Shown here one piece after another: positions 1,791 through 21,426 of a stretch of 64,000 nt of DNA. The stretch covers positions 1,152,001 to 1,216,000 of the forward strand of contig NZ_WPHG01000001.1 of NCBI RefSeq assembly GCF_009742725.1. Reading direction: 5' to 3'. Both the position numbers and the translations under genes were made by a program. The DNA comes from Nitratireductor arenosus (GTDB lineage: Bacteria; Pseudomonadota; Alphaproteobacteria; Rhizobiales; Rhizobiaceae). A model generated the notes under the pieces. That model worked only from the letters and a program-made list of their open reading frames with translations, was not told the origin of the DNA and ran no database searches. Each line of letters begins with the position of its first letter. Positions within the stretch are counted from its first letter, which is position 1.

Positions 1791-1866
1791 CGATCCCGGA
1801 CCGCCGCAGGGCGCCGGCCCGGCCATCGCGTCACGACCGCGCGATCACAAATCTCTTGACGGCGCA

Positions 1867-1894
1867 TTCGTTATATTCAATGAAATATATCGAA
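1867..1894. promoter_or_regulatory. Molybdate box (ModE-type operator) upstream of modA
   Basis: Two 11-base arms, TTCGTTATATT and AATATATCGAA, flank a 6-base spacer, with 10 of 11 positions inverted-complementary. This closely resembles the known ModE operator core (CGnTATAT-N6-ATATnnCG). It lies 53 bp upstream of the modA ATG, just downstream of a TTGACG (1856-1861) that could be a -35 element, so a bound repressor would cover the promoter. A short ModE-like protein is encoded at the end of the same operon, which suggests autoregulation by molybdate. Confidence 0.75.
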
Positions 1895-1947: not shown

Positions 1948-2757
1948 ATGTCGGGCTTGTTGCGTTTTCCCGTTGCCGTTCGGACCTTTCTCATCCTGGC
2001 GATTGCGAGCCTGTCGGCGGTCCCGGCGCCGGCCAATGCCGGCGACAGGGTACTGGTCTTTGCCGCCGCCAGTCTGCGCAACGCGCTCGACGAGATCGGC
2101 GCGGCCTGGGGGGAGAAGACCGGCGCGACGCTGGTGGTCTCCTATGCCGGCAGCTCGGCGCTCGCGCGCCAGATCGAGCAGGGCGCGCCGGCCGACCTGT
2201 TTGTCTCGGCCAATCTCGACTGGATGGACTATCTGTCCGAGCGTGGCCTGACCGACGCGGCGAGCGAACGTGAGCTGTTGTCGAACCGGCTGGTGCTGAT
2301 CGCGCCGAAGGACTCGGAGGTTGAGCTCGCCATCGCGCCCGGCGTCGATCTTCTCGCCGCGCTCGGCGATGACGGACGTCTCGCCATGGCCAACACCGAC
2401 GTGGTGCCGGCCGGCCGCTACGGCAAGGCCGCGCTGCAGTCGCTCAAAGCCTGGGACGCGGTCGAGCCGCGCGTCGCGCAGGCGGAGAACGTGCGCGCCG
2501 CGCTGGCCCTGGTCTCGATCGGCGAGGCGCCGCTCGGCATCGTCTACCAGACCGACGCCGCCGCCGATGCCGACGTGCGCGTCGTCGGACTTTTCCCGGA
2601 AGAGACCCACCCGCCGATCGTCTACGCCGCCGCGCTGATGGCCGGGGTCGACAAGGACGAGGCGCGCGCCTTCCTCGCCTTCCTGCGGTCGCCGGCGGCC
2701 TCGGCGATCTTCGCCGATCACGGCTTTGTGCCGCTCGCCGTCGCGACGACCGATTGA
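1948..2757 (+). CDS. modA: Molybdate ABC transporter substrate-binding protein
   Basis: ModA captures molybdate or tungstate in the periplasm and delivers it to ModBC. The 269-aa product begins with a signal peptide (hydrophobic core FLILAIASLSAV, likely cleavage after ANA, about residue 30), followed by the ModA signature FAAASLRNAL and YAGSSALARQIEQGAPAD, where the oxyanion-binding Ser residues lie. ATG at 1948 is preferred over the in-frame GTG at 1936 because GGAGGGA (1938-1944) sits just before it. The stop overlaps a TTG that could start modB. First gene of modABC plus a ModE-like gene. Confidence 0.93.
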   Translation: MSGLLRFPVAVRTFLILAIASLSAVPAPANAGDRVLVFAAASLRNALDEIGAAWGEKTGATLVVSYAGSSALARQIEQGAPADLFVSANLDWMDYLSERGLTDAASERELLSNRLVLIAPKDSEVELAIAPGVDLLAALGDDGRLAMANTDVVPAGRYGKAALQSLKAWDAVEPRVAQAENVRAALALVSIGEAPLGIVYQTDAAADADVRVVGLFPEETHPPIVYAAALMAGVDKDEARAFLAFLRSPAASAIFADHGFVPLAVATTD

Positions 2758-2774
2758 ACGCCGCCGCGCTGACG

Positions 2775-3476
2775 ATGGATTGGCTCGGCCTCGGCCCGCA
2801 GGAATGGACGGCCGTGCGCCTCTCGCTCAAGGTGGCGCTGTGGGCCGTGGCGGCGAGCCTGCCCTTCGGGATCGCTGTGGCGCTGCTTCTGGCGCGCGGC
2901 CGCTTCTGGGGCAAGGCGCTGCTCAACGGCGCGGTGCACCTGCCGCTGATCCTGCCGCCGGTCGTCACTGGCTATGCGCTCCTGCTGGGCTTCGGCCGAC
3001 AGGGCCCGCTCGGCTCCTTTCTCGCCGAGCAGTTCGGCATCGTCTTCGCCTTTCGCTGGACGGGCGCGGCGCTGGCCGCAGCGGTGATGGGGTTTCCGCT
3101 GATGGTCAGGGCGATCCGCCTGTCGATCGAATCCGTCGACCGACGGCTCGAGCAGGCGGCCGGAACGCTGGGCGCCAACCCGCTGCAGGTGTTTTTGACC
3201 GTGACCCTGCCGCTGATCCTGCCGGGCATTCTCGCCGGCACGGTGCTCGCCTTCGCCAAGGCGATGGGCGAATTCGGCGCCACCATCACCTTCGTCTCCA
3301 ACATTCCCGGCGAGACCCAGACGCTGCCGTCGGCGATCTACACCTTCCTGCAGGTGCCGGGCGGCGAGGGCGGCGCGCTGCGGCTCACCGCGGTGTCGGT
3401 GGCGATCGCCATGGCGGCGCTGGTCGCCTCCGAATTCCTGGCCCGGCGGGCCGGGCGTGGCGCGGGTGCGGGTTGA
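2775..3476 (+). CDS. modB: Molybdate ABC transporter permease
   Basis: Inner-membrane channel subunit of the molybdate importer, about 233 aa with five or so hydrophobic segments. The EAA cytoplasmic loop that docks on ModC is visible as EQAAGTLGANPLQVF, and the ModB-typical GEFGATITFVSNIPGET follows; resemblance to the E. coli protein is strong throughout. The start is uncertain: the ATG used here gives MDWLGLGPQEW, while a TTG at 2754, overlapping the modA stop, would add seven residues. The stop codon shares its A with the modC ATG (TGATG), indicating translational coupling. Confidence 0.93.
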   Translation: MDWLGLGPQEWTAVRLSLKVALWAVAASLPFGIAVALLLARGRFWGKALLNGAVHLPLILPPVVTGYALLLGFGRQGPLGSFLAEQFGIVFAFRWTGAALAAAVMGFPLMVRAIRLSIESVDRRLEQAAGTLGANPLQVFLTVTLPLILPGILAGTVLAFAKAMGEFGATITFVSNIPGETQTLPSAIYTFLQVPGGEGGALRLTAVSVAIAMAALVASEFLARRAGRGAGAG

Positions 3477-4636
3477 TGTTCTCGCTCGACGTCACCCATC
3501 GCCAGGGCGCCTTCACGCTCGATTGCCGCTTCGAGAGCGCCGGCCGCCTGACGGCGCTGTTCGGTTCTTCCGGCTCCGGCAAGACGACGCTGGTCAACAT
3601 CGTCGCCGGGCTGATCCGTCCCGACCGCGGCCGCGTCGCGGTCGGCGAGCGCGTGCTTGTCGATACTGCGCGCCGCCTCGCCCTGCCCGTTCACCGCCGC
3701 CGCATCGGCTACGTGTTCCAGGACGCGCGATTGTTTCCGCATATGAGCGTCGCCCAGAATCTGCGTTACGGCGAGCGCCACATCCCGCAGGCCGAGCGCT
3801 ATGCGCGGTTCGACCACGTCGTCGACCTGCTCGGCATCGGCCATCTTCTGGCGCGCCGCCCCGAGGCGTTGTCGGGTGGCGAAAAACAGCGCGTGGCAAT
3901 CGGCCGGGCGCTGCTGGCCAGCCCCCGGCTGTTGCTGATGGACGAGCCGCTGGCCGCGCTCGACGAGGCGCGCAAGGAGGAAATCCTGCCCTATGTCGAG
4001 CGGCTGCGCGACGAGGCGGCGGTGCCGATCCTCTATGTCAGCCACGCGCTGGCGGAAGTGTCGCGCCTGGCCACCGACATGGTGGTGCTGGCCGGCGGCG
4101 CGGTGCGCGCGGCCGGTCCCACCGACGCCATCATGCAGCGCCTCGACCTGTTGCCGGAAGACGAGCAGGGTGAAGGCGGCGCGGTGCTCGACGGCGTGGT
4201 GGCCAGCCACGACGAGACGTTCGAGCTGACGGTCATCGACACGGGCGCCGGCGCGCTGCGCCTGCCGCGTCTCGATGCCGAGCCGGGAAAGCGCGTCAGG
4301 ATCCGGATTCGCGCCCGCGACGTGATGGTGGCGACCGAACGGCCGCGCGGCCTGTCGGCGCTCAACGTGATCGAGGGCACGATCAGGGCGCTGGAGCCGC
4401 GCGCCGGCGCTGCCGTCGACGCCTTTATCGATTGCGGCGGCCACACGCTGGTGGCGCGCATCACCCGCCAGTCCGAACGCCTGCTCGATCTCCGGCCCGG
4501 CCGCCCGGTCTTCGCCGTCGTCAAGTCGATCAGCTTCGATCGCGGCGGTCTGGCGACGTTCCGCGCCGCCGGAGAGGCCCCGTCGCCCGCCCCAGCGAAA
4601 GACGCATGGATTGCCCCGCCCGGCTCCATGGATTAG
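3476..4636 (+). CDS. modC: Molybdate ABC transporter ATP-binding protein
   Basis: Energises molybdate import. The 386-aa protein has Walker A GSSGSGKTT (30-38), Q-loop FQD (81-83), signature LSGGEKQRV (132-140), Walker B LLLMDEP (152-158) and an H-loop histidine near 190, followed by a C-terminal Mop domain (about 285-355) of the type that binds molybdate and gives feedback inhibition. The start overlaps the modB stop by one base. The same frame stays open upstream across modB, but that part is antisense-like noise. Slightly longer than the usual 350-370 aa because of a Pro/Ala-rich tail. Confidence 0.93.
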   Translation: MFSLDVTHRQGAFTLDCRFESAGRLTALFGSSGSGKTTLVNIVAGLIRPDRGRVAVGERVLVDTARRLALPVHRRRIGYVFQDARLFPHMSVAQNLRYGERHIPQAERYARFDHVVDLLGIGHLLARRPEALSGGEKQRVAIGRALLASPRLLLMDEPLAALDEARKEEILPYVERLRDEAAVPILYVSHALAEVSRLATDMVVLAGGAVRAAGPTDAIMQRLDLLPEDEQGEGGAVLDGVVASHDETFELTVIDTGAGALRLPRLDAEPGKRVRIRIRARDVMVATERPRGLSALNVIEGTIRALEPRAGAAVDAFIDCGGHTLVARITRQSERLLDLRPGRPVFAVVKSISFDRGGLATFRAAGEAPSPAPAKDAWIAPPGSMD

Positions 4637-4668: not shown

Positions 4669-5010
4669 ATGCCAACCCTGAGTTTGCGGATCGACCTCGA
4701 CCCCGAAGGCCGCATCGGCCCGGGCAAGATCGCGCTTCTCGAAAACATCGCCGCGTGCGGCTCGATCTCGGCCGCCGCGCGCTACATGGCCATGTCCTAC
4801 AAGCGCGCCTGGGATCTGGTCGAGGAGATGAACCGCATCTTCGGCAAGCCGCTCGTCGCCGCCCGCACCGGCGGCAAGCGCGGCGGCGGCGCCGAATTGA
4901 CGCCGGTCGGGCTGGCGGTGGTGAAACGCTTTCGCGCTATCGAGGAGGCCGCGAGCGCGGCCACCGCCCATCACATTAGCGCGCTGCAGGCCGCAATCGA
5001 CGCGGCGTGA
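4669..5010 (+). CDS. modE: ModE-like winged-helix regulator, DNA-binding domain only
   Basis: A 113-aa protein matching the N-terminal LysR-like winged helix of ModE: GPGKIALLENIAACGSIS followed by the recognition helix AARYMAMSYKRAWDLVEEMN and a wing with GGKRGGGAELTPVG. It lacks the C-terminal molbindin repeats of E. coli ModE, as do many alphaproteobacterial and standalone ModE-type proteins. It starts 32 bp after modC in the same direction, so it is probably the last gene of the mod operon. With the palindrome upstream of modA it probably represses the operon; how it senses molybdate without a Mop domain is open. Confidence 0.85.
   Translation: MPTLSLRIDLDPEGRIGPGKIALLENIAACGSISAAARYMAMSYKRAWDLVEEMNRIFGKPLVAARTGGKRGGGAELTPVGLAVVKRFRAIEEAASAATAHHISALQAAIDAA

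Positions 5011-21350: not shown

Positions 21351-21426
<76 letters not shown>

Follow-up and report, generated by a model that had tools for sequence, protein, structure and literature searches.

A predicted Mo-box in front of modABC and a one-domain ModE(S) in Nitratireductor arenosus

ModE of Escherichia coli is a dimer of 262–265 aa chains. It controls molybdate uptake through Mo-boxes, and its C-terminal molbindin domains bind molybdate. Agrobacterium tumefaciens has a one-domain form, ModE(S) (Atu2564). In work attributed to Hoffmann et al. from 2016, this ModE(S) reportedly represses modABC, and Tn5 insertions in Moco genes are said to relieve the repression. A. tumefaciens likewise carries Mo-boxes before modA, and its modE(S) is cotranscribed with atu2565. 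MopA and MopB of Rhodobacter capsulatus are full-length proteins with molbindin, unlike the ModE(S) considered here. Both are ModE-type repressors of a modABC operon, acting on mopA-modABC through Mo-boxes when molybdate is present (PMC6925177).

We analysed a 64,000-nucleotide stretch of N. arenosus DNA (the window), in which modA, modB, modC and modE are arranged head to tail in that order on the plus strand. The modA gene (1948–2757, start codon ATG at 1948) encodes the molybdate-binding protein (TIGR01256, 203.7 bits, cut-off 62.5; NF007958, 260.5 bits, cut-off 253), and its likely ribosome-binding site, GGAGGG at 1938–1943 on the same strand, was located by eye. The permease gene modB (2754–3476; NF006939, 366.6 bits, cut-off 262; TIGR02141, 213.6 bits, cut-off 182.6) overlaps both modA and modC, and a later ATG at 2775 is a possible alternative start. 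The ATPase gene modC (3476–4636; TIGR02142, 432.2 bits, cut-off 285.05) encodes a C-terminal TOBE/Mop-type domain at residues 294–351, about 4355–4528 (PF03459, 50 bits). All three products score above curated cut-offs as molybdate transporter components. The modE(S) gene (4669–5010), assigned by profile matches and a fold model, encodes a one-domain ModE of 113 aa and follows modABC, whereas its A. tumefaciens counterpart is transcribed with atu2565. An aldolase/dehydrogenase gene lies upstream of the operon, and an HxlR-type regulator lies 3′ of it on the opposite strand. The window also holds a tRNA gene at 21351–21423 (Rfam, 67 bits).

The predicted operator of modABC-modE is a 28-bp sequence at exactly 1867–1894, TTCGTTATATTCAATGAAATATATCGAA, to which no strand is assigned; it is a Mo-box by core fit and by conservation in relatives. 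Its arms form an inverted repeat with 10 of 11 matches around a 6-bp spacer, and it stands 53 bp from the modA start. A first-pass annotation had described this palindrome, placed it before modABC and read it as a Mo-box, and in all three respects it proved accurate. For scoring we used the Mo-box core TCGNTATAT-N8-ATATANCGA (16 positions), which the boxes of relatives later supported. The site scores 16/16. The runner-up in the window scores 11, and shuffling the modA upstream stretch 300 times gave a mean best score of 9.2 and a maximum of 12. It is the sole exact match to the core in the 4.8-Mb genome, and the reversed-pattern control gave none. Palindromes of this kind (11-bp arms, at least 10 matches, spacer 6) number four in the window versus a mean of 2.2 and a largest count of 6 in 60 shuffles, and the idea that the site stands out through symmetry alone was rejected. 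We regard the box as real because it combines consensus fit, position and conservation. A. tumefaciens has two Mo-boxes, whereas this operon has one: the second-best core site upstream of modA reaches 9/16. Among 36 relatives whose box is good, seven have a second site scoring at least 11.

A –35-like hexamer, TTGACG (1856–1861, plus strand), was noticed by eye 5 bp before the Mo-box and is also found in Nitratireductor alexandrii and in the genus mate G199. A promoter scan returned zero promoter-like sites and no full sigma-70 match, so the overlap of promoter and box is argued from this hexamer as seen by eye. Given the 5-bp distance, a bound dimer would sit at the RNA polymerase site, and repression would be likely.

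The 113-aa protein scores 97.1 bits against TIGR00637, just below the cut-off of 98.5 (1.4 short), and HTH_1 (34.2 bits, cut-off 26.6) is its sole Pfam domain. The structure model (pLDDT 93.8) consists of a winged helix and C-terminal helices, with no further domain visible; neither Pfam nor the model contains molbindin or TOBE. The first-pass description of an operon-end ModE reduced to its DNA-binding domain is thus confirmed. The model matches 2ijl, a solved structure entered as 'putative ModE from Agrobacterium tumefaciens', which has the same one-domain form (TM 0.80 over the query; 92 bits by sequence). It also matches E. coli ModE (1b9m, 1o7l), whose winged-helix DNA-binding domain is homologous (55 bits) and whose chain, at more than twice the length, includes the molbindin domains absent here. 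The profile for the E. coli type, NF007957, gives 66.5 bits against a cut-off of 369. What marks a ModE(S), namely a winged helix, a length of about 110–135 aa, no molbindin or TOBE and a Mo-box before modA, is found here throughout. A TIGR00637 search recovered no other clear ModE in the genome; the match ranked after it (E 2.3e-4) is in a 311-aa frame of LysR length.

A ModE match at E ≤ 1e-8 occurs in 104 of 199 genomes of the order, this one included. The other genomes gave 115 matches, from which 100 loci were fetched; the 15 not used were weaker matches or second copies. One-domain proteins of about 106–136 aa account for 88 of the 100 loci, or 87 of 99 genes since one gene appears as both L062 and L110, and the other 12 measure 257–350 aa. 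The 350-aa ModE is that of L098, and L232 has one of about 587 aa. The first-pass annotation had treated the reduction as unusual, which these counts and the solved structure 2ijl do not support: a sensor-less ModE is the usual form in the order rather than a defect. The closest named relative that we found is N. alexandrii, with 93% identity in ModE and an identical Mo-box. The system of N. arenosus is a further example of the known, conserved ModE(S) kind.

Among the one-domain loci of the order with a modA match, the box beats all 30 shuffles of its own upstream stretch in 38 of 47, and 36 of 47 score at least 12/16 (shuffle mean best, 8.9). The nine loci with no box above their shuffles are L056, L069, L095, L116, L123, L126, L127, L135 and L142. 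Named loci with modA, a set that overlaps in part with the 47, have a box above shuffles in 37 of 38 cases, and none was found at the Tectomicrobia locus L261. Two-domain loci with a modA match have a box in 0 of 4, although the scanned stretches may be wrong because several of these modA matches score low or lack part of their front end. Seven chosen modA upstream stretches were aligned, which hold six distinct sequences at most as the G199 and N. alexandrii rows look alike, and 16 of 17 invariant columns fall inside the box. Column counts were also taken from the boxes of 38 relatives, which had been picked by the same core. The Mo-box is therefore kept at most loci where modA adjoins a one-domain ModE.

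The box, its conservation at one-domain loci, the gene order and the predicted fold form the basis of our reading, and from them we infer binding by ModE(S), its dimeric state, repression and promoter overlap. Judging from sequence and structure model, we think it likely that modABC-modE is governed by negative feedback of the standard ModE(S)/Mo-box type, with Moco status as the probable signal. ModE(S), encoded by the last gene of the operon, would bind the Mo-box as a dimer. The box would occupy the expected –10 side of the modA promoter, and bound ModE(S) would block modABC-modE transcription under molybdenum sufficiency. As ModE(S) lacks molbindin, it probably responds to Moco status rather than to molybdate itself, and may sense it on its own or by way of a Moco-handling protein, as is reported for A. 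tumefaciens. The question of sensing raised by the first-pass annotation has a published answer in that relative, reported to be Moco status. The presence of MoaA and MoCF_biosynth proteins counts in favour of the loop.

A DUF2478 gene lies at L248:5445–6023, and genes of the same cluster occur near ModE(S) in 10 of 49 loci not beside modABC (L248 included), the Pfam assignment having been checked for the L248 copy only. Such a gene is possibly a Moco-related partner.

Without a sensor domain, and as the product of the last gene of the operon that it would control, ModE(S) might also occupy the box regardless of molybdenum, so that repression would be constitutive or merely autoregulatory. We give this very little credence, given that repression in A. 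tumefaciens is reported to depend on Moco and that constitutive repression of an uptake operon would be hard to explain across so many genomes. Alternatively, the small domain itself might bind molybdate or Moco, which would make a partner unnecessary. Alignment of 31 relatives shows invariant residues, GG-x-x-x-GG in the wing among them, that are compatible with such a role, and an inter-subunit site could form if the protein pairs like its E. coli relative. However, these residues seem to resemble DNA-contact or fold residues, no metal-site motif is evident in the 31-relative alignment, and Cys30 is not conserved. We consider direct binding by the small domain unlikely.

A separate molybdate sensor is the other way to replace the missing molbindin, either the Mop domain of ModC, as the first-pass annotation had proposed, or a free Mop protein. 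The ModC of this operon does carry a TOBE/Mop domain. At four ModE(S) loci (L088, L095, L102 and L111), however, ModC has 203–243 aa and no TOBE/Mop match. One of them, L088, belongs to G001 (completeness 100), which is unique among the eight genomes searched in having no TOBE match at E ≤ 0.01 and nonetheless retains ModE(S), with a box scoring 12/16 where its own 30 shuffles reach 11 at most. L095 is both Mop-less and without a box above shuffles, and at L102 no modA was found, so that its box is unscored. The Mop domain of ModC is therefore a poor candidate sensor, and the proposal is disfavoured.

As for a free Mop protein, a short TOBE frame of 71–79 aa is present elsewhere in three of the four genomes with Mop-less ModC (G177, G152 and G186), and a free Mop may exist there. 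A genome search for Mop-domain proteins, also suggested at first pass, did list seven TOBE matches besides ModC in N. arenosus, but no short free-Mop frame is among the matches listed: the five checked all lie beside ABC ATPase sequence, and the other two belong to long frames, of 674 and 433 aa. We consider a separate molybdate sensor of either kind quite improbable. One suspect is removed in the genomes with Mop-less ModC, and these, G001 foremost, lend themselves naturally as test cases.

Turning to the distribution of the core, we find an exact copy in 5 of the 199 genomes of the order, with none in the reversed control, and four of the five sites precede a modA. The fifth (G147, L155:7955–7980) has a HemN-type radical SAM gene on one side and a ketol-acid reductoisomerase gene on the other, and no molybdenum gene was recognised adjoining it. 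When two mismatches are allowed, 84 of the 199 genomes hold at least one site; by hand count there are about 115 sites, compared with about 82 in the reversed control. Because this excess over the control is modest, two-mismatch matches count only with positional support. N. arenosus itself has eight sites at three mismatches versus one in the reversed control, and for the four genomes of the genus the control is empty at up to two mismatches. The genus members G200 and G201 have no modA box at this tolerance.

The first-pass annotation had also suggested a search for further Mo-boxes. At up to two mismatches, N. arenosus has two sites only (control, 0): the modA box and a Mo-box-like site of 15/16 at C8:836728–836753 (L144:1501–1526). 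The latter is flanked by moaA, 71 bp away, and by a divergently oriented GBBH-like_N (PF06155) gene; the moaA product matches Mob_synth_C with 132.9 bits. G199 has both a modA box and a moaA site (15/16), in G201 the site before moaA scores 14/16, and G200 has no site at all within two mismatches.

A moaA match occurs in 192 of 199 genomes of the order, and we scanned 41 moaA upstream stretches, this one included. Among the other 40, six score 12–13/16 (L156, L157, L158, L160, L164 and L172), one scores 11, and 33 score 8–10, like shuffles; the site of L158 merely equals its best shuffle. L156, L157 and L158, of the same family, have a different, weaker site (12/16) at 14–15 bp from moaA. The motif TTGGTAACAT is common to all five aligned moaA upstream sequences. 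The idea of a broad moaA box across the order is thus weakened, as a good site in the same place is found in genus mates only. Rfam at gathering scores, run on L151, L002 and the window, found no Moco riboswitch before moaA or modA and a tRNA only. In E. coli, ModE, FNR and ArcA control the Moco genes, and a Moco riboswitch acts in addition on the moa operon (PMC10845959).

The second site beside moaA raises the possibility that ModE(S) also governs Moco synthesis. We tentatively propose for the genus, as a possibility that we do not favour outright, a two-target end-product loop with Mo-boxes at modA and at the moaA/GBBH-like gene pair. Moco supply would then set both the import of molybdate and the initial step of Moco synthesis, and the cofactor would tune the pathway that makes it, with neither a molybdate sensor domain nor an Rfam-known Moco riboswitch. 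Our literature searches found no paper on ModE(S) itself, and the predicted moaA box may be the only part of the system that is new. If this box is bound, the control exerted by ModE(S) would extend from molybdate uptake to cofactor synthesis.
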